Assembly: GCF_000179775.1 (NCBI RefSeq)
Contig: NZ_AEEB01000017.1
Span: 1 to 64,000 of the forward strand
Origin: Ahrensia sp. R2A130
GTDB taxonomy: Bacteria > Pseudomonadota > Alphaproteobacteria > Rhizobiales > Rhizobiaceae
DNA length: 64,000 nucleotides
Direction of reading: 5' to 3'
The position numbers and the translations under genes were made by a program. How positions within the stretch are numbered: position 1 is the first letter of the stretch; each line of letters starts with the position of its first letter. Below, piece after piece: positions 34,789 to 56,911 of the stretch. The notes beneath the pieces were generated by a model, which was not told the DNA's origin, did no database searches, and worked only from the letters and a program-made list of their open reading frames with translations.

Positions 34789-34864
34789 GCGGCTGTAGCT
34801 CAGCTGGTAGAGCGCTGGCTTGTGGAGCCAGATGTCGGGGGTTCGAGCCCCTCCAGCCGTACCA
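34789..34864 (+). tRNA. tRNA-His (GTG)
   Basis: This 76-base cloverleaf has acceptor arm GCGGCTG paired with CAGCCGT (first pair G-U), anticodon stem CTGGC/GCCAG with anticodon GTG at 34822-34824, T-arm GGGGGTTCGAGCCCC and encoded CCA. Most bacterial tRNA-His genes encode an extra G at position -1 opposite C73. Here the base before position 1 is T and position 73 is A. That is the special alphaproteobacterial form in which HisRS no longer needs G-1, and it fits the HisRS encoded at 55-57 kb. Confidence 0.96.
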
Positions 34865-39868: not shown

Positions 39869-40810
39869 TCAGTTCCCTAGGAATTGATCGAACACGTCGC
39901 CTGTCTGTTTCTGGTACTGGCGGCTGGTATTTCCGCCCGGTTCCAGCATATCGCCAAAAATGTCGTTCAAGCCGCCACCGCTTGGTGGCGGTGTTTGGCG
40001 TGGACGGCTGGCCTGACGGCTCGGGCGCTGCTGGGTGCGTGGATCGGCCCGACGACGCTGCCGCGGCGTGCCGCCACCGCCCAAAATATCTTCAAGCAAT
40101 CCACCAAGGCCACCACCGGGGTTGGCCCGCCGCTGCTGGCGTGGTGATGGTTGGCGCCGCGAACGGGGCAATTGTGCTCGGGGGGCTGGCGCACGTTGCT
40201 GCTGGCTACCGCCGAGCAATCCGCCCAACAGACCTTCCAAAGAATTCGGCAGTGCCTGACCGGAGCGTGAGCGACCGCGTGGCTGCTTGCTGCCGCCCAA
40301 CATACCGCCTGCGACACCTTCGATCAGCGTGCCCAGCAGGCCACCACCGGCAGCCTTGCCCAGCGTGCGGCCGATGCCGCCGCCCATGTTGGAATAACCG
40401 CCGCCTGTGCCACCTTTGAGCAGCGCACCCATAACCATGGAGGCGATAGCAGGAAGCATAGACTTGATGAGGCTGGAACTGATGCCGGATGCAGCGGACG
40501 CATGAGACGCCACGCCGCGCGACACGTCTTTATTGCCGAACAGATGGCCCAAAATAGCTTGGCCTTCGCTCAACCCTTGTTCGGAAACCGCCATGCGCGG
40601 ATCGCGGGCATATTGTGCGTGCTGGCCGGAAGCGAGTGCCTGAATAAGGCCGGCTGCAGAACCTGCGGAATTCGTCTGCCGTTTCAACCCTTCCGAAAAT
40701 GCGGGAATGACCGCCCCCATCGCTTCCAGTGCCTGCTCTTCGGACAGGCCGAATTGCTGTGAAAGGGCATCAACATTCTTCTGCGTGACGAGAAGCTGTG
40801 TGAGGTTCAT
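39869..40810 (-). CDS. DUF937-domain protein with Arg/Gln/Pro-rich tail
   Basis: This 313-residue protein has an N-terminal DUF937-like helical domain (LSQQFGLSEEQALEAMGAVI, ILGHLFGNKDVSRGVA) and a glycine-rich stretch with possible membrane-active helices (SSSLIKSMLPAIASMVMGAL). A C-terminal half of repeated GGLLGG and Arg/Gln/Pro-rich segments (SRRQPSPRQQRRANP) follows. DUF937 proteins have no settled function. AAGGAGA precedes the ATG at 40810; the frame is open 39 bases further upstream without a better start. It is divergent from a small secreted protein gene. Confidence 0.75.
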   Translation of the reverse strand: MNLTQLLVTQKNVDALSQQFGLSEEQALEAMGAVIPAFSEGLKRQTNSAGSAAGLIQALASGQHAQYARDPRMAVSEQGLSEGQAILGHLFGNKDVSRGVASHASAASGISSSLIKSMLPAIASMVMGALLKGGTGGGYSNMGGGIGRTLGKAAGGGLLGTLIEGVAGGMLGGSKQPRGRSRSGQALPNSLEGLLGGLLGGSQQQRAPAPRAQLPRSRRQPSPRQQRRANPGGGLGGLLEDILGGGGTPRQRRRADPRTQQRPSRQASRPRQTPPPSGGGLNDIFGDMLEPGGNTSRQYQKQTGDVFDQFLGN

Positions 40811-40913
40811 CTGGTGTTCTCCTTGCATCGCCGTATCGCATGACGACATATTTCATTTGACCGTTTCGAGGTCGCTTAGCATGATTAACGCATCTGCAAT
40901 ATGGAGTGTTCCC

Positions 40914-41297
40914 ATGAGAACTCTACTACTCGCTCTCGCTATCTCTCTTTCGTTTGCTGGCTCTGCGCTTGCGCAAGACGCAAAGCCGGGTGCCAAAGCC
41001 GTACCTCCTGGCGTGATGGCGCAGGTGGTGCTGTCCGAACAATTGATCGCGCTAGGCACTGCGCGCAACGACGCGCACCTGTTACTCGCTGCCATGCGGC
41101 TCCGTTCAGATGTCTCCGATGAAATGCCCGCGATCGGTGGCGAGGTCACTAGCGATGAAGCCCTTGATGCGGCACTTGCAAAGGCAGTTGCTGGTAACGA
41201 CGCGCTGACCGGGGTTGCGGAAGACGTGAAGGCCAGCCGCCCTCGCGCCTTCCACCCCAACTGCTTCATGTCAGGCGGTGTACGCGTCTGCTATTGA
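40914..41297 (+). CDS. small secreted hypothetical protein
   Basis: This 127-residue protein has a clear signal peptide (MRTLLLALAISLSFAGSALA, cleavage before QDAKPG), a helical mature domain with LIALGTARNDAHLLLAAMRL, and a C-terminal segment with two cysteines (NCFMSGGVRVCY) that may form a disulfide. I do not recognise the family. GGAG lies a few bases before this start. It faces away from the DUF937 gene and converges on gshA, with a hairpin between. Confidence 0.72.
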   Translation: MRTLLLALAISLSFAGSALAQDAKPGAKAVPPGVMAQVVLSEQLIALGTARNDAHLLLAAMRLRSDVSDEMPAIGGEVTSDEALDAALAKAVAGNDALTGVAEDVKASRPRAFHPNCFMSGGVRVCY

Positions 41298-41311
41298 TGT
41301 AAACCAAAACT

Positions 41312-41340
41312 CCGATGGTCCGCCAGGCGCGGTCCATCGG
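41312..41340. terminator. hairpin between convergent genes
   Basis: CCGATGG at 41312 pairs with CCATCGG at 41334-41340, with further pairing inside, in the 50-base gap between the small secreted protein gene and gshA. There is no T tract, so termination on either strand is only plausible. Confidence 0.5.
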
Positions 41341-41347
41341 GTGGGCT

Positions 41348-42709
41348 TCAATACCCGTATTCTTCAAAAATATGGTCGATATCGCTATCCCAGTTGGAGC
41401 GGAATTGCTTGAGCAAGCGTTCGGCTTGCGTTTCCTTCAGCGCCACCACTTCGTCTAACGGGCCCAGAAAATGGGTTTCGTTAACGCCGGACTGGTTCAG
41501 GCGGTTGCGCGCGTTCAACCCGCGATGGGCTATAGCCATAGCGTCTTTGGCGACGTCGAGCACTGTGCGTTTGCCTGCCGGTGCAGCCAAGCCTTTGGCG
41601 GGCACTGCCTCGCGCATGGCGCGCACAGCGTCATAGTCGAGGTCGGCGCAGAGCGCCTCAGCCTCGTCCAGCGCTGCATCGTCATACAGCAGTCCGACCC
41701 AGAAAGCTGGCAGGGCGCAGATGCGCCGCCAAGGGCCACCATCGGCACCGCGCATTTCGATGAATTTCTTCAGCCGCACATCTGGGAACAGGGTGGAAAT
41801 GTGATTCTGCCAATCACCTTCGTTCGGCACTTCGCCTTCCAGTGCACCGTCAAGAAATTGCTGGAACGTGATGTGGGTGCAATCGCGATACACGCCATCG
41901 CGGGAGATGAAATACATCGGGCAGGACAGCGCCCAGTCGACATATTTTGCAAAGCCGAAATCAGGTTCCAGAACGAACTCGTGCAATCCGGCGCGCTGGT
42001 TGTCCGTATCGCGCCAGATATCGGAGCGCCATGACAGCAATCCGTTGGGCTTGCCGTCGGTGAAGGGAGAGTTGGCGAACAGCGCGCTGGCGACGGCCTG
42101 CAGCTTCGTGGACACCTGCATTTTGCGGCGCATGTCGTCTTCGCTGCCAAAATCGAGGTTCACCTGAATGGTGCAGGTGCGATGCATCATGTCGAGGCCC
42201 TGCGTGCCGACCTTTGGCATATAGGCGCGCATGATGTCGTAGCGGGATTTCGGCATTTGCGGCGTTTCCGCAAAGGTCCATTTCGGGCTGCCGCCAAGGC
42301 CCAGAAACCCCATGCCAAGCTCGTCGGCGACTTCCTGCACCTGCCGTAAATGCTTGTTGGATTCGCGGCACGTCTCGTGGATGGTTTCCAACGGTGCGCC
42401 CGACAGTTCGAACTGCCCGCCCGGCTCCAGCGAGATCGCGCCCATACCGTCATGGGCAACAAGGCCGATGATGTTGCCAGCATCGACAATCGGCTCCCAA
42501 CCTGTCTTGGCCTGCATACCTTCCAGCAACGCTTTGATGCCGCGATCGCCCTCATAGGGAACCGGCGAGAAATCCGACCGGTAATAGGCAAATTTCTCGT
42601 GTTCGGTGCCGATGCGCCATTCGTCTTTCGGCTTGCAGCCATCGGAGAGCGCGTGGACGAGCTGGTCGTAATTTTCCAGCGGCGTGTTGTCGGTGGTGTC
42701 GCGGGCCAT
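41348..42709 (-). CDS. gshA: glutamate-cysteine ligase (class II / plant-alphaproteobacterial type)
   Basis: This 453-residue ligase carries RIGTEHEKF near residue 37, the GGQFELSGAP signature, and HRTCTIQVNLDFGSE with TKLQAVASALFANSPF. These match the GCS2 family of alphaproteobacteria and plants rather than E. coli GshA. It joins glutamate and cysteine as the first step of glutathione synthesis. It follows rsmE on the same strand after 109 bases, an order common in Rhizobiales. The window also encodes a glutathione transferase at 5.2 kb. Confidence 0.93.
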   Translation of the reverse strand: MARDTTDNTPLENYDQLVHALSDGCKPKDEWRIGTEHEKFAYYRSDFSPVPYEGDRGIKALLEGMQAKTGWEPIVDAGNIIGLVAHDGMGAISLEPGGQFELSGAPLETIHETCRESNKHLRQVQEVADELGMGFLGLGGSPKWTFAETPQMPKSRYDIMRAYMPKVGTQGLDMMHRTCTIQVNLDFGSEDDMRRKMQVSTKLQAVASALFANSPFTDGKPNGLLSWRSDIWRDTDNQRAGLHEFVLEPDFGFAKYVDWALSCPMYFISRDGVYRDCTHITFQQFLDGALEGEVPNEGDWQNHISTLFPDVRLKKFIEMRGADGGPWRRICALPAFWVGLLYDDAALDEAEALCADLDYDAVRAMREAVPAKGLAAPAGKRTVLDVAKDAMAIAHRGLNARNRLNQSGVNETHFLGPLDEVVALKETQAERLLKQFRSNWDSDIDHIFEEYGY

Positions 42710-42818
42710 GGGTCGGCTTTCGTCGCGTGTCTTTGTTATCTAAATCGCTAGACCCGTGAAGTGAGGCAGGCAAGGGGCAATGCAGATGACAAGCTCACGT
42801 TTGCGCGTTCGTCCGCTT

Positions 42819-43556
42819 TTATATCCAGTCGCCGCGGGCAGCCTGAACCAGCGCAAGTGCTGCAACCGCCGCCGTGTCAGCGCGTAAAATACGCGGGCCG
42901 AGAGGGATGGCGTGGACGTGAGACTGTGCGTGTAGCCATTCACGTTCCTCTGGCGAAAAGCCGCCTTCAGGGCCAATAAGAACAGCGAGCGGAGCGGTAA
43001 TGGTAAGATCACGCAGAATATCCAGCGCGCCGCCGGTTCCCGCTTCCATTTCATCGCAGAAAATTACCGTGCCGCAATCGGCGACGGCATCCTGCATGGA
43101 CAGGACATCATAAACTTGGGGCAGGGCCAGCACGCCGCATTGCTGTGCGGCTTCCACCACATGCGTCTCCATGCGCTCGATGTTCACCTTCCGCATTTGG
43201 GTGTAGGCGGTCATCACAGGTTGCAGATGGCCAGCGCCCATCTCCACTGCTTTTTGAATCATATATTCGAGACGTGCCTGTTTCAGCGGCGCAAACAGCA
43301 GTCGCAAAGTTGGAAGCTCTGGCTGAACCCGCGTCTGCTCGCCCAAAACAAACGTCGCTTTCTTGCGCCCCTCACGCTGAACGGTCGCCCGCCATTCTCC
43401 ATCGCGTCCGTTGAACAGCAGCAGCGGATCACCATCGCCCATCCGTAGAACGTTCAGAACATGGTTGGCTTCCGCGCGCCCCGGTTCGATATGGCCGCCC
43501 GCGCCCAATGCCTCGGGCGTGAAAAAGCGACGTGTGGTGAAGTCGATGCGTGTCAT
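42819..43556 (-). CDS. rsmE: 16S rRNA (uracil-1498-N3)-methyltransferase
   Basis: This 245-residue SPOUT methyltransferase has an N-terminal PUA-like domain (HVLNVLRMGDGDPLLLFNG) and a C-terminal knotted domain with VLIGPEGGFSPEE and LGPRILRADTAA, the RsmE signatures. It methylates U1498 of 16S rRNA with S-adenosylmethionine. The start at 43556 is preferred to an ATG 30 bases upstream on alignment grounds. It is upstream of gshA on the same strand. Confidence 0.93.
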   Translation of the reverse strand: MTRIDFTTRRFFTPEALGAGGHIEPGRAEANHVLNVLRMGDGDPLLLFNGRDGEWRATVQREGRKKATFVLGEQTRVQPELPTLRLLFAPLKQARLEYMIQKAVEMGAGHLQPVMTAYTQMRKVNIERMETHVVEAAQQCGVLALPQVYDVLSMQDAVADCGTVIFCDEMEAGTGGALDILRDLTITAPLAVLIGPEGGFSPEEREWLHAQSHVHAIPLGPRILRADTAAVAALALVQAARGDWI

Positions 43557-43778
43557 GGCGCTGTGATGAAACGCTTCGCGCGGCAACTCAATACGCCCTT
43601 TGATCGCCCCACGAAATCTTGCCCCCTAAATCTCGTGTAACTGAAGCCTGCAAAATTTTAGCTTTTTCTTTTCGCTCCCGCATAACGGACCGCTCACCGC
43701 GCCAATGAGATTGAGATGACAAGCGCTGCCAGTTTGCTAGCGATAGACCACCCAAGGCAGGGCAACTGGAGCGGAATT

Positions 43779-44516
43779 ATGAAATTTGCAGAACGCATGT
43801 GGAACTTCGTTGATAAGAATCTGGGCGCAGACCCGGAACTGAAAATGGCACTCGGCGATGCCATCAACTCATTCCTCGATGCAGCCGAGATCGGTGATCG
43901 TGGTGCAATGCGCGAAGCACGAAGTGAGGCCCGTGAGGCGCGCGATTCTATTCGTGAAGCCCGCAAGGAATATATCGACGCCTTCAAGGCGGTGCGCGAC
44001 GATGCTAAAGAGGTTCGTAACGAGGCCAAGGAAGCCTTGAACGAAGCCCGCGCAGACGTTCGTGCCGCCCGCGATGAATTCCGCGAAGCCCGCAAATCCG
44101 GTGACGAAGACGCAATGGAAGCTGCTCGCGCCAAACTAGACGGGGCCCGCGAGGTTCGTGCCGAGGCCCGTGATGCGCTGGACGAAGCCCGTGAGATCGT
44201 CCGCGAAGCCCGCGACGACATTCGCGAAGCCCGTGATGCATGGCGCGATGGCGGCACTGAAGATCAGTCGGAAGAACCACCGGTTGATGACCCAGTTATG
44301 ATCGACTTCCCCGTGGAAGAGCCGGTCGAGGAACCAGACGACCTGCCAAGCGATCTGCCATTCGATCCCTCCTTCTTCCAGCCACCAGTGTTGACGATGG
44401 AGAATTTCGAGCCTGTTGTGCAGTTCGACCAATTCGTCCATCCGGTTGAAGTTTTCGACTCCGTCATGGATGCCAAGGGCTTCGAAGCTGAATTCGATGC
44501 GGCGGAAGTGGCCTAA
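43779..44516 (+). CDS. charged helical-repeat protein of unknown function
   Basis: The product has 245 residues. A short N-terminal domain (MKFAERMWNFVDKNLGADPE) is followed by about 125 residues made almost only of Ala, Glu, Arg and Asp, with recurring (A/R)EAR(D/K) units, which should form one long charged helix or coiled coil. The rest is Pro/Asp/Glu-rich and ends with an acidic, Phe-rich stretch. There is no signal peptide. I do not recognise the family; the helix resembles LEA-like or apolipoprotein-like repeats only in a general way. GGAG precedes the ATG at 43779, and a terminator follows at 44543. Confidence 0.75.
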   Translation: MKFAERMWNFVDKNLGADPELKMALGDAINSFLDAAEIGDRGAMREARSEAREARDSIREARKEYIDAFKAVRDDAKEVRNEAKEALNEARADVRAARDEFREARKSGDEDAMEAARAKLDGAREVRAEARDALDEAREIVREARDDIREARDAWRDGGTEDQSEEPPVDDPVMIDFPVEEPVEEPDDLPSDLPFDPSFFQPPVLTMENFEPVVQFDQFVHPVEVFDSVMDAKGFEAEFDAAEVA

Positions 44517-53424: not shown

Positions 53425-54117
53425 GCTTGCCAGCACCTTCGCCACTACATCATCGCGCGCAGCTTTTGCTGCATGACCCCAGTCAGCCCGCTTGCTTTCG
53501 ATCAAAGTGGCCTGACTTTTCAAAATCACACCGTCATCCAACACTTTCAGATTGTTCGCGCGAATGGTGGAGCCGGTGCTTGTGATATCGACAATCGCGT
53601 CTGCGCTGCCCGCTGCCGGTGCACCTTCGGTTGCGCCCAGGCTTTCCACAATACGATAGACGCCGATTCCGTGTTGGCCGAACCAGTTCTGGGTCAGCTG
53701 CCAGTATTTCGTCGCCACCCGCAGGCGTCGGCCCGTGCGCTGGCGGTAGTGTGCGGCCACATCATCAAGGTCGGCCATCGTGTCCACGTCGATCCAAGCA
53801 TCCGGCACGGCGACCACCACATCGGCATGGCCGAAGCCCAGCGGCGCGACGAAGGACACTGCCTCATCCACGCCCGCGATTTTTTCCCGCGCGAGGTCTT
53901 CGCCCGTTACCCCCAGATGCACGGAACCAGCGGCGAGTTCGCCTGCGATTTCCGACGCTGAAAGGAACGCGATCTCGATGTCATCGCGGCCTTCCACGGT
54001 GGTCTGGTAAGAGCGTTCATCGGCGGGCGGTACGATGGTCAGCCCGGCTTTGGCGAACACGTCCATCGTATCCTGCTTCAAGCGGCCTTTGGACGGAATG
54101 GCGATTATTAGGCTCAT
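53413..54117 (-). CDS. hisG: ATP phosphoribosyltransferase, short form
   Basis: This 234-residue HisG has [11 protein letters not shown] at the N-terminus, the [21 protein letters not shown]-binding segment, and no regulatory C-terminal domain. The short form works only in complex with HisZ, encoded immediately upstream; together they catalyse the first step of histidine synthesis. The ATG at 54117 overlaps the hisZ stop codon (ATGA), and the operon order is hisS-hisZ-hisG. The open frame extends upstream inside hisZ but is not the start. Confidence 0.94.
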
Positions 54118-55181
54118 GCCGCGTCCTCCAGCCGGTCCAATGCGATGGAAAAACCGACGGCTGGGACGGTAGCGTCTGCGCCGAGCAGGCTGCACAGCCC
54201 GTCATAGCGGCCACCGCCACCGATCAACACGCCGCCACGTGAGGCTTCGAAAACCATGCCGGTGTAGTAACCTAGATTGCGCCCCAGCGAGGCGCGGTAG
54301 GTTAAGGTGGTGCCAGTGTCGCTGAGTTGTGCGGCGCGATCTGCAAAGGCGGATAGCGTGTCGCCAAAGTCGAGATTGTTCTTGGCACCGAATGCAGAAA
54401 GCTGATCTTTGGCTTCGCCCAACGGGCAACGCAGATTGAGGAACCCGCGCAATACGGAAAGCTGATCGGCCTCCAGCGAGAACCCGGCGATGGCGGCGCG
54501 CTCGATCATGCGGCGGGCGATGTCTTCCGGCGAGCGGCCCGCTTTGGGCGACAGGTTGGCGGCGGCCATGCGCTCGCGCACCAGCGCCTCGAGGGCGGCT
54601 TTATTGCCATCGCGGGCGAGGCGGTCTTCGTCGTTCTTGTTGCGGACGGGTGTTGCCGCGCTCAATTTATCCAACAGCGCAGCCAGTTGGTTCGGCGCGC
54701 CGAAGCTGCGGAGCAGGCGGTCGCCGACACCGGCGGGCAGGCCCAAACCTTCCACCACCACGGCGAATAGCGCCTGGTCGCCCAGTTCCACTTCATCCGC
54801 TGCGCGGCCCGCAGCGTCTAGCGCGGCCAGCATGTCGCGCAGGGCGTCGGCATCAGCGGCGGTGGTGTCGGTGCGGCCCAAATCTTCCATGCCCACTTGG
54901 CGGAATTCTGCAGCGCTGCCCCGTGATTGGCGAAACACCGTGCCGCCATAAGAGCAGCGCCGTGCGGCCTCGTCGGAGGCGACGAAATTCATGCAGATCG
55001 GAATCGTAAATTCCGGTCGCAGGCACAGCGTTTCGCCGGAACCTGATTCCGTTATGAAGATGCGGCGGCGCATGTCTTCGCCTGCCGTTTCCAAAAACGG
55101 ATCAGCAGGTTGAAGAATTGCGACATCGACGGGCGACGCGACGGCGGCCAGATGGTCCGAAAGGGCGGTGAAGAGAGGCAC
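54114..55181 (-). CDS. hisZ: ATP phosphoribosyltransferase regulatory subunit
   Basis: This 355-residue HisRS-like protein begins with GTG at 55181, two bases after the hisS stop. It has [20 protein letters not shown], a motif-2-like [11 protein letters not shown] segment and [18 protein letters not shown] near the C-terminus. It lacks the anticodon-binding domain of true HisRS, as expected for HisZ, which allosterically regulates short HisG. The frame opens upstream to 55301, but the GTG gives the correct family N-terminus and operon spacing. Confidence 0.92.
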
Positions 55182-55183
55182 GG

Positions 55184-56911
55184 TTAGGTCGCCGCAGCTT
55201 CTGCTTCGCGCTCGGCCTTTTGCTCTGCCAGCACGGCTTTCACGGTGTCCACCAAGTCCTCGCGCTTTACGGTGCGCTGGGCGGGGCGGGCGGCGCGCCA
55301 TTCGGCGTTGTCGGTGATTTCTTCTGAAAGTCGCAGGCCTTCCACGAGGTCTTTGACCTGCACCTCGCCAGCTTCGCGTTCCTGCGAACCCTGAATGATC
55401 GCGATGGGGCTGCCGCGACGGTCTGCGTATTGTAGCTGCTTGCCGAACTGTTTCGGGTTGCCTTGATACATCTCGGCGCGAATGCCCGCTTGCCGCAGCT
55501 CCTGCACCATCTTCTGATAGCCCGCGAGCGCATCGGCATCGCGGTCCATCACGCCGACGATCACGGGTGCCAGCACCTCGTCCTCGTTCAGCTTGCCGAG
55601 GTTCTTCAACGCCGTCATCAAGCGCGACACGCCGATGGAAAAGCCGGTCGCCGGAATGTCCTGACCGGTGAACCGTTTGATAAGCCCATCATAACGACCG
55701 CCACCAGCGACGGAGCCGAACACGACCTCCTCGCCCTTCTCGTTCTTCACAGGGAAGGTGAGTTCACATTCGAAGACGGTGCCGGTGTAATATTCGAGAC
55801 CACGGACGCATGTGAGATCAACAGCTATTTTTTCGCTACCGTACCCAACCTCTCGTAACATCAAAATTGTATCGAATAGATTTTCGTAGCCTCTCTTCAA
55901 CTCGCTGCGAAACCGCTCATCAATCTCAGAATAGTCCAAATCTCTCAACGATTCGGACCCTGAGAAATTTGCACCGAAAGAAGTAATTACCTGAGGCAGT
56001 AGGAGGAGGCTTTCTTCAAAAAATTCATCTGGAGTTAGAGCTTCAGGCTCATCAACTGGAAGCCAATCAAGTTTGTATGAAAAGCCAACATTCTCGTCGT
56101 CCTCAACAACTACTCTTTGCAGCGAAAAAACCTTGTCAGGGCGTTTTTTTTCAGTGAAGGCTTTCTGCCAAGTTAGGAGATTAGAAAATTTTTCAATTTG
56201 TGAGCTCGTCAATTTGACGCCGTCAGTCCAATCGCCACTATCGTCTCTTCGTCCGGCCCCTAGTAGCTTCTGTACTTCTACTTCCCCAAGCCGGTCCAGC
56301 TTATCTAAGGCTCGGAGGACTCCCAATCGTCGCCCTTCATCTTCAGGATTCGATAGACCAATTACATTTAGGATGGCGTCAATTAGAATTCGACTGTTTA
56401 CCTTGACTACATACTGACCTTTTAGGCCCAACGCCTCCATCGTGTCCGCCATCATCATGCACATTTCAGCATCGGCGCTCGCGTTCGGAGCGCCTACGAT
56501 ATCGGCATCGAATTGCGTGAACTGGCGGAAGCGGCCGGGGCCGGGCTTTTCGTTGCGGAACACCCAGCCGGCGCGATAGGTGCGGTAGGGCGTTTGCAGA
56601 TCGTTGATGTTTTGGGCGAAGTGGCGGGCGAGCGGCGCGGTGAGATCGTAGCGCAGGCTCATCCATTTTTCGTCATCATCCTGCAGCGAAAACACGCCCG
56701 CGTTGGGACGGTCGGTGTCCGGCAGGAATTTGCCCAGCGCGTCGGTATATTCGAAAAATGGCGTCTCCACGGGGTCGAAACCGTAGAGTTCATAGACGCC
56801 CTTTATCTTCGCCATCATGGCGTCGGTGGCGCGAATATCGGCAGCGCTGCGGTCGCCAAAGCCACGCGGCTGCTGCGCCTTGAGACGCTGCGGTTTTTTC
56901 GGTTTCGCCAT
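55184..56911 (-). CDS. hisS: histidyl-tRNA synthetase with an unusual AT-rich, enlarged middle region
   Basis: The protein has 575 residues: motif 1/2 region with [15 protein letters not shown] and [20 protein letters not shown], HisA motif [14 protein letters not shown], motif 3 [10 protein letters not shown], and a C-terminal anticodon-binding domain (about 460-560). The [12 protein letters not shown] form of motif 2 fits the alphaproteobacterial HisRS class that charges tRNA-His without G-1. From memory, homologues are about 500 residues; the extra length lies between about residues 150 and 370. That part is coded by DNA far more AT-rich than both flanks (roughly 37-43% G+C in sampled rows against 62-72%) and has unfamiliar sequence ([12 protein letters not shown]-like and [14 protein letters not shown]). 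The ends are typical and the frame is intact. It is first in hisS-hisZ-hisG. Confidence 0.92.

Follow-up and report, generated by a model that had tools for sequence, protein, structure and literature searches.

Histidyl-tRNA synthetase of Ahrensia sp. R2A130 carries an AT-rich insertion domain of a kind that is probably exchanged between species of Hyphomicrobiales

The DNA analyzed here (hereafter, the window) comprises positions 1 to 64,000 of contig NZ_AEEB01000017.1 of Ahrensia sp. R2A130. Its reverse strand carries an ORF with an intact reading frame (55184..56911) that encodes a 575 amino acid histidine--tRNA ligase (HisRS) and corresponds to hisS. The whole protein scores 359.5 bits against the NCBIfam model TIGR00442 (cut-off 286.75), as an ordinary hisS equivalog does, and harbors the Pfam domains tRNA-synt_His and, at its C-terminus, HGTP_anticodon, together with class II motif 2 and the HisRS signature RGLEYYTG. 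Its role, as predicted from these features, is the charging of tRNA-His, and hisS is the only HisRS match in this genome. The ORFs that follow are taken to be hisZ and hisG on the basis of their position, hisS-hisZ-hisG being the annotated gene order in relatives. As listed, the hisZ ORF (54114..55301, reverse strand) overlaps hisS, and its true start probably lies near 55180.

Analysis of base composition along hisS revealed that GC content per 150-bp window falls from approximately 0.58-0.65 to 0.41-0.51 between ~55775 and ~56450, with recovery on both sides. A two-change-point fit to GC3 delimited a segment of codons 163-374 (55790..56425), with 2-lnL intervals of codons 160-165 for the left change point and 365-384 for the right one; the gain in lnL was 36.8 on a coarse grid, compared with a maximum of 8.4 in 40 codon shuffles. 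In addition, positions 55826-56425 are the poorest 600 bp of the 64 kb (43.8% GC; next poorest, 49.8%; mean, 58.1%; sd, 2.8). A sequence-only reading of this DNA had described an AT-rich middle of hisS, sharply bounded and without a frame break, and the GC3 steps at codons 163 and 374 bear this description out.

The AT-rich segment (GC3 0.39), referred to below as the cassette, corresponds to the HisRS insertion domain. Like all parts of hisS it lies on the reverse strand, between a native 5' part (56426..56911, residues 1-162, GC3 0.77) that holds motifs 1 and 2, and a native 3' part (55184..55789, residues 375-575, GC3 0.76) that comprises the C part of the active site and the anticodon-binding domain. 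Two portions can be distinguished within the cassette: a frame (56207..56425, residues 163-235), which can be aligned to other HisRS proteins and holds invariant residues, and a variable head (55877..56206, residues 236-345), recognized by the domain model, the head search and the head families described below. Between conserved anchors, the insertion segment of the window measures 205 amino acids, against a median of 160 (range 113-220) in 109 genes, a sample that includes the window's own gene and six duplicates. The earlier estimate of an excess of about 70 residues thus agrees with a comparison to the default form of the domain (mostly 127-147 amino acids) and is too high with respect to the median, where the gap is 45. 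In a set of 200 genes (192 distinct, with six genes missed by the motif search regained by alignment), the window cassette ranks third among the 192 in GC3 shift.

A segment that is AT-rich, in frame and sharp-edged might be a mobile element residing within hisS, either an intein or a palindromic insert such as those described in Rickettsia. We regard this as highly unlikely, as Pfam and NCBIfam scans detected no such domain, a search for a second DNA copy in the window's own genome returned only chance matches no longer than 31 nt, and there are no inverted repeats of at least 14 nt within 55500-56700, a stretch with two families of imperfect 14-nt direct repeats. Moreover, the domain is replaced rather than interrupted, with frame residues lying inside the AT-rich part. 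Silent copies of the variable part were not found in this genome (94.9% complete) by either protein or DNA searches. An assembly chimera, conceivable in a genome of 59 contigs, is scarcely credible, considering the intact frame with all invariant residues, a genome contamination of 0.12%, and the presence of the same pattern in records labelled complete.

In a 53-sequence alignment, twelve frame residues are invariant: N172, R174, D178, R200, D203, D206, L217, G220, R221, T229, G231, and L234. The sequence-only reading had placed an enlarged insertion domain here. An AlphaFold2 model of the domain has a mean pLDDT of 82, with values of 52-86 in blocks of ten along the head, its first residues aside, and the head is modelled as a helix, a beta hairpin, a helix and the start of a further helix. 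The top chains retrieved with VIA-align were HisRS and HisRS-like proteins, and the domain model aligns to the equivalent region of human HisRS (4x5o; Z 12.0, rmsd 2.7, 146 of 233 residues) and to the Nostoc protein (3net; Z 10.4). The part unmatched to human HisRS is probably much of the head. A Foldseek search with the domain model retrieved nothing at E <= 0.001, and a full-length model was poor (mean pLDDT 68), its fold match being uninformative for the head. The window domain therefore resembles the known HisRS insertion domain (TIGR00442; solved in human, Nostoc and others) in its fold match and conserved frame residues, but differs from it in having a head for which the family sample holds no relative by sequence; Hyphomicrobiales differ further in that the whole domain varies between close species.

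We next compared the window enzyme with its relatives. A hisS match is present in 14 of the 15 genomes of its genus, its own genome counted. Across 12 other genus genes (locus L020 was missed), identity to the window is 77-89% over residues 1-160 and 46-67% over residues 161-230; residues 231-345 can hardly be aligned, with 26 to 111 residues standing there instead, and over residues 371-560 identity is again 77-85% (68% in genome G014). For the cassette frame part, relatives show about 45-67% identity. A middle of the window's kind is not common to close relatives: of the 13 other genomes of the genus in which hisS was matched, G013 alone gave a full-length match, and the variable head had no match at E <= 0.001 in the 198 other family genomes drawn. 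The hisS of G013 is the same as in a public MAG with the title 'Rhizobiaceae group bacterium' (L047 = L002). Since it shares residues 161-230 with the window at 67% identity, part of the divergence of the window could be vertical, and differences at four-fold sites between the two show no clear step (middle, 21/32; flanks, 70/153). Counting the window, 6 of 13 genus genes have a GC3 offset between middle and flanks of -12 or lower, and seven do not.

Three other loci of this genus (L003, L004, and L006) also have AT-rich middles, each unlike that of the window. Genomes G012 and G013 share 168 of 170 residues in the N-terminal part of HisRS and have near-identical tRNA-His genes, yet their middles differ. 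It should be noted that the 0.9-Mb genome G014, placed in the window's genus, has a hisS (L030) that is AT-rich throughout, with a short domain.

Beyond the genus, we gathered 103 distinct HisRS genes, most of them from 80 named records, after dropping L020 (motif not found) and six exact duplicates. These 80 loci are those that match the window best, which skews the sample towards its relatives; a few titles point to other groups (Rhodobacteraceae, Arenimonas, Marinicella). Pairs of close species whose flanks have 94-95% DNA and 97-98% protein identity share only about 55-64% identity in the middle. Differences at four-fold sites were profiled per ten residues in 19 independent pairs of close species, all with flanks of at least 88% DNA identity, with L068 as the reference and without the near-identical Stappia pair L052/L053, in which both members have the same domain. 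The difference is 0.07-0.32 up to residue 180, 0.50-0.81 over residues 181-350 except in two thin bins (2/7 and 9/9), and 0.11-0.41 after residue 350. Pooled over 27 pairs, it amounts to 1273/5007 in the flanks and 663/1292 in the middle. The neighboring hisZ, used as a control in 18 of the 19 pairs (one pair is missing), shows no step (1073/3556 = 0.30; 0.21-0.40 per 25 residues). As the step lies in synonymous sites of conserved codons, selection on amino acids alone does not explain it, and the simplest reading of these alignments is that the middle would have an older common ancestor than the flanks.

The clearest example corresponds to Shinella zoogloeoides Teo12 (NZ_CP131131) and Shinella sp. 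PSBB067 (NZ_CP069303), which have different hisS domains in genes that are 90-99% identical per 100 bp outside of it. The left edge is abrupt, identity ending after GGCGTGCTGGAGG, and the right edge lies within about five codons, with near-complete identity again from GATCGACCCGTCGGTCGTGCGCGG. GC3 of the three hisS parts is 88.9 / 35.8 / 90.0 in Teo12 and 87.2 / 92.2 / 91.4 in PSBB067, the domain of the latter being a default form that resembles the Sinorhizobium meliloti domain; two S. meliloti strains and Sinorhizobium sp. K101 have one default domain in common. Among 32 ORF pairs in the 46 kb around the Shinella hisS, which include apparent wrong-frame shadow ORFs, only hisS combines a 100-codon window of <50% identity with a GC3 minimum of <0.3; in one shadow-like ORF (40790-44024), identity likewise drops to 0.27 over a 100-codon window, with a GC3 minimum of 0.42. 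Between otherwise near-identical genes, a bounded domain has thus been exchanged. For the window's own hisS there is no relative close enough for a comparison of this type, and we infer transfer into it from its composition and from the order-wide pattern.

With respect to record type, 18 hisS matches fall on plasmid records, that of Teo12 among them. The hisS of S. meliloti Ak57 (L307, CP090106.1) is in frame only to approximately residue 388, either because of an error in sequencing or because this copy is broken, in a record labelled pSymB yet 3.7 Mb in size.

The comparison of domain forms was extended by a further sixty hisS stretches, which come from twelve genera with several species each and from one single genome. 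The domain exists in two states with intermediates: a conserved default form, and many longer, mostly AT-rich forms that cannot be aligned with one another. The default form has host-like GC3 and, in several genera, a divergence similar to that of the flanks; the longer forms occur sporadically, with GC3 offsets of -15 to -39 in the further sixty stretches. Domain length and GC3 offset are correlated (Spearman -0.69, 192 genes), and in hosts with GC3 of 80-90% the median domain GC3 is 64% for long forms (at least 155 amino acids; n = 39) and 85% for short forms (<142 amino acids; n = 27). The two properties are not perfectly tied, as AT-shifted genes of default length exist (L158, -29; L188, -28; L214, -19; L211, -18) and one pair of 128 amino acid forms shows values of 0.40 vs. 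0.19.

An offset of -12 or lower was found in 82 of the 163 genes taken as from the order, in a sample biased to the window's relatives. Beyond the order, offsets lie between -8 and +9 in 19 genes that share this HisRS type and between -13 and +12 in nine genes of another HisRS type; seven Rhodobacterales genes on plasmid records, with domains of 135-142 residues, have offsets of -3 or higher. Given that four genes from the order of the alphaproteobacterial genome G422 have offsets of -3 to -14, the cassette pattern may not be wholly confined to the window's order.

A total of 162 variable heads, about 12 to 119 residues long, form 89 families, of which 61, the window head's included, are singletons. 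Median GC3 offsets are -3 to +2 for the four largest families and -18 for heads in families of three or fewer. The ratio dN/dS in the heads is 0.18-0.30 in the three of nine long-form pairs for which it could be computed, the others being saturated, and has a median of 0.61, compared with 0.35 in the flanks, in 220 short-form pairs. No sign of positive selection by point mutation was detected in the heads by dN/dS in these 3 long-form and 220 short-form pairs, a result that fits weakly better with functional alleles being moved whole.

These data bear on the possibility that the domain has diverged rapidly in place, a weakly constrained region gathering substitutions, indels and AT-rich codons without any transfer. 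In its favor, a GC3 dip is common (median offset -18 in the 109 genes), the wide range of head lengths is evidently tolerated, and short-form heads have the higher dN/dS noted above. Nevertheless, synonymous sites at conserved codons jump at the domain edges, the Shinella switch is abrupt, and the window segment lies below every other 600-bp stretch of the window in GC content. In addition, default-form middles keep host GC3 and evolve at about the pace of the flanks in several genera, which indicates that the region is not intrinsically hypermutable. We consider in-place divergence improbable.

Phylogenetic analyses point in the same direction. In AU tests with 90 genes, the trees obtained from the N flank, the C flank and both flanks combined are all rejected by the middle (174 alignable nt), as is the middle tree by either flank (p < 0.001 in all cases). 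The N and C flanks likewise reject one another's trees, by a smaller likelihood margin per site, and the N flank rejects the combined tree (p = 0.005); some recombination involving the flanks, or error in the trees, is likely. The nearest neighbor by flank is also the nearest by middle in 11 of 103 genes. Together with the step in 19 pairs and the Shinella breakpoint, the conflict between domain and flank trees supports the intragenic replacement by recombination that the sequence-only reading had proposed. That reading had also allowed for slow local divergence, which would have left one tree for all segments and an AT-rich middle shared by close relatives; the trees conflict and the relatives differ. 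What does need revision is its picture of hisS as a mosaic produced by one event: the AT-rich middle is present, and a single-event framing is too narrow for a segment that varies across the order.

A search for the origin of the window cassette gave a less direct result. With the window domain as the query, 291 of 297 order genomes, its own included, gave matches; among the matches listed, the window itself aside, these cover only the first ~75-117 residues of the domain at ~43-60% identity, and many order genomes have a second domain match beyond those listed. No donor was found among the order genomes (matches listed) or the 198 other family genomes. Viral contigs had no match to the variable head or to the whole protein, and phage records had none to the window's domain. 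In one genome (G311, 6% contamination), two hisS-like domains were seen among the matches listed, on contigs 5 and 6. A gene of Stappia and one of Agrobacterium share 73% of the middle, with flanks at 79% DNA identity. Among 12,954 gene pairs, the middle is significantly more diverged than the flanks in 244 after Bonferroni correction and significantly less diverged in none, although two pairs reach p < 0.001. No recent donor-recipient pair was thus caught; one would expect fresh transfers to be missed with a very large pool of cassettes, yet their lack also limits the evidence.

Taking these results together, we propose that the middle of hisS is a swappable, hypervariable insertion-domain cassette that has probably been replaced repeatedly by homologous recombination in Hyphomicrobiales, the order of the window. 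In this model, the conserved N- and C-terminal parts would be kept while the domain between them is replaced, with crossovers in the conserved edge blocks, which lie around the RVNNRK motif at the left edge and around RGLEYYTG at the right one. Each cassette would bring the few invariant frame residues that keep the enzyme working, plus a head of its own, and the non-default cassettes, mostly AT-rich and unadapted to host codons, would come from a large pool circulating between species. As neither inverted repeats, second own-genome copies nor viral relatives were found, we infer homologous recombination within the edge blocks as the mechanism. In the literature searched, with most subscription journals outside it, we found no account of an insertion domain of HisRS that is hypervariable or exchanged.

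We also analyzed the substrate of the enzyme, as the sequence-only reading had noted a tRNA-His without G-1 and linked the unusual domain to tRNA recognition. The first observation was confirmed. The window tRNA-His (GTG anticodon; 34789..34864, forward strand), identified with ARAGORN and by its sequence, has a T at position -1, a G1:U72 pair and A73. In relatives, tRNA-His was located with the window's tRNA-His as the query. Among the 13 other genomes of the genus in which the gene was detected, 12 have the same acceptor stem as the window and G014 departs from it by one base pair; this query found no tRNA-His in G010, and a G at -1 is absent from all 22 tRNA-His genes shown. The motif 2 loop of the window enzyme (RNEKPGPGR) has a glycine, whose placement against the E. 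coli loop we take to be correct, and EKPGPGR is invariant in 53 sequences. Some Alphaproteobacteria are reported to lack G-1 and C73, Caulobacter using A73, U72 and the anticodon (PMC9976931), and by a rule given in PMC3937112 Gly replaces Gln in the motif 2 loop of alphaproteobacterial HisRS; Ardell and Andersson, Wang et al., and Yuan et al. are the authors tied to this work (PMC9976931, PMC3937112).

It is conceivable that a new domain was gained together with an altered tRNA-His, and the window tRNA-His does have the alphaproteobacterial form described in PMC9976931. We judge this very unlikely, and the earlier suggestion about tRNA recognition is unsupported: domains differ freely among genomes in which the acceptor stem is the same (12 of 13) and G-1 is uniformly absent. 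With an acceptor stem that is nearly constant, cassette exchange does not track tRNA identity. The T at -1, U72, A73 and the motif 2 Gly are those of the known alphaproteobacterial system; there, a single ancient joint change is described (PMC9976931, PMC3937112), whereas here a domain is exchanged repeatedly in the descendants.

If exchange by recombination is accepted, its cause has to be considered. One explanation is that exchange is real and selectively neutral, the domain merely tolerating replacement and the AT-rich alleles coming from AT-rich donors, and we assign it a probability somewhat short of even. The twelve invariant frame residues in 53 genes and the near-constant acceptor stem suggest that all cassettes do the same job, as neutrality would have it. 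On grounds of plausibility, 61 singletons in 162 heads and 82 AT-rich genes in 163 go beyond what unaided drift is expected to produce in a gene that is essential, and, by a similar argument, no other of the 32 Shinella ORF pairs in 46 kb shows the combination found in hisS.

As a selective cause, we favor escape from an antagonist, with neutrality as the main rival. The antagonist, which could be a contact or diffusible toxin, a protein made by a phage, or a small molecule such as a natural product, would bind the default head, and changed heads would escape it. Many alleles, a constant tRNA interface and the import of whole domains make the target of an antagonist the simplest driver that we see, and the diversity may be kept, we tentatively suggest, because the default head is its putative binding site. 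The insertion domain of Hyphomicrobiales could then possibly act as a serotype-like resistance locus against a widespread antagonist, with catalysis and tRNA recognition unchanged. We know of no natural inhibitor directed at HisRS. Synthetase alleles resistant to inhibitors do exist, as for mupirocin and IleRS or agrocin 84 and LeuRS; an altered synthetase as the means of escape is the likeness, for HisRS a proposed one, and the HisRS diversity is of a serotype kind, unlike a single resistant allele. A second parallel is HsdS, the specificity subunit of type I restriction systems, in which target-recognition domains with many alleles are exchanged between conserved blocks. In both, variable domains are swapped between conserved blocks of one gene, but HisRS is an essential housekeeping enzyme and no silent copies were found in the window's own genome. 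If the antagonist reading were true, HisRS would, as far as we know, be without precedent among essential aminoacyl-tRNA synthetases in behaving as surface antigens or restriction specificity genes do.

Aminoacyl-tRNA synthetases are textbook conserved enzymes, used as phylogenetic markers and drug targets, and repeated replacement of a domain is unexpected in so basic an enzyme. An exchangeable hypervariable domain would mislead phylogenies based on hisS and would suggest that part of a synthetase can be exchanged while tRNA identity stays as it is. The variability of HisRS may also point to an agent acting on this enzyme in soil, plant-associated and marine bacteria, and the two Shinella strains represent a ready natural experiment.

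Two observations on gene copies and location should be mentioned. The genome G422 has two full-length hisS genes (L253 and L315) that are about 60% identical, one of which is possibly a spare or resistant copy. Finally, in several Rhodobacterales (L323-L326 and L330) hisS-hisZ-hisG is found on plasmid records, adjoining slyX and dnaE.
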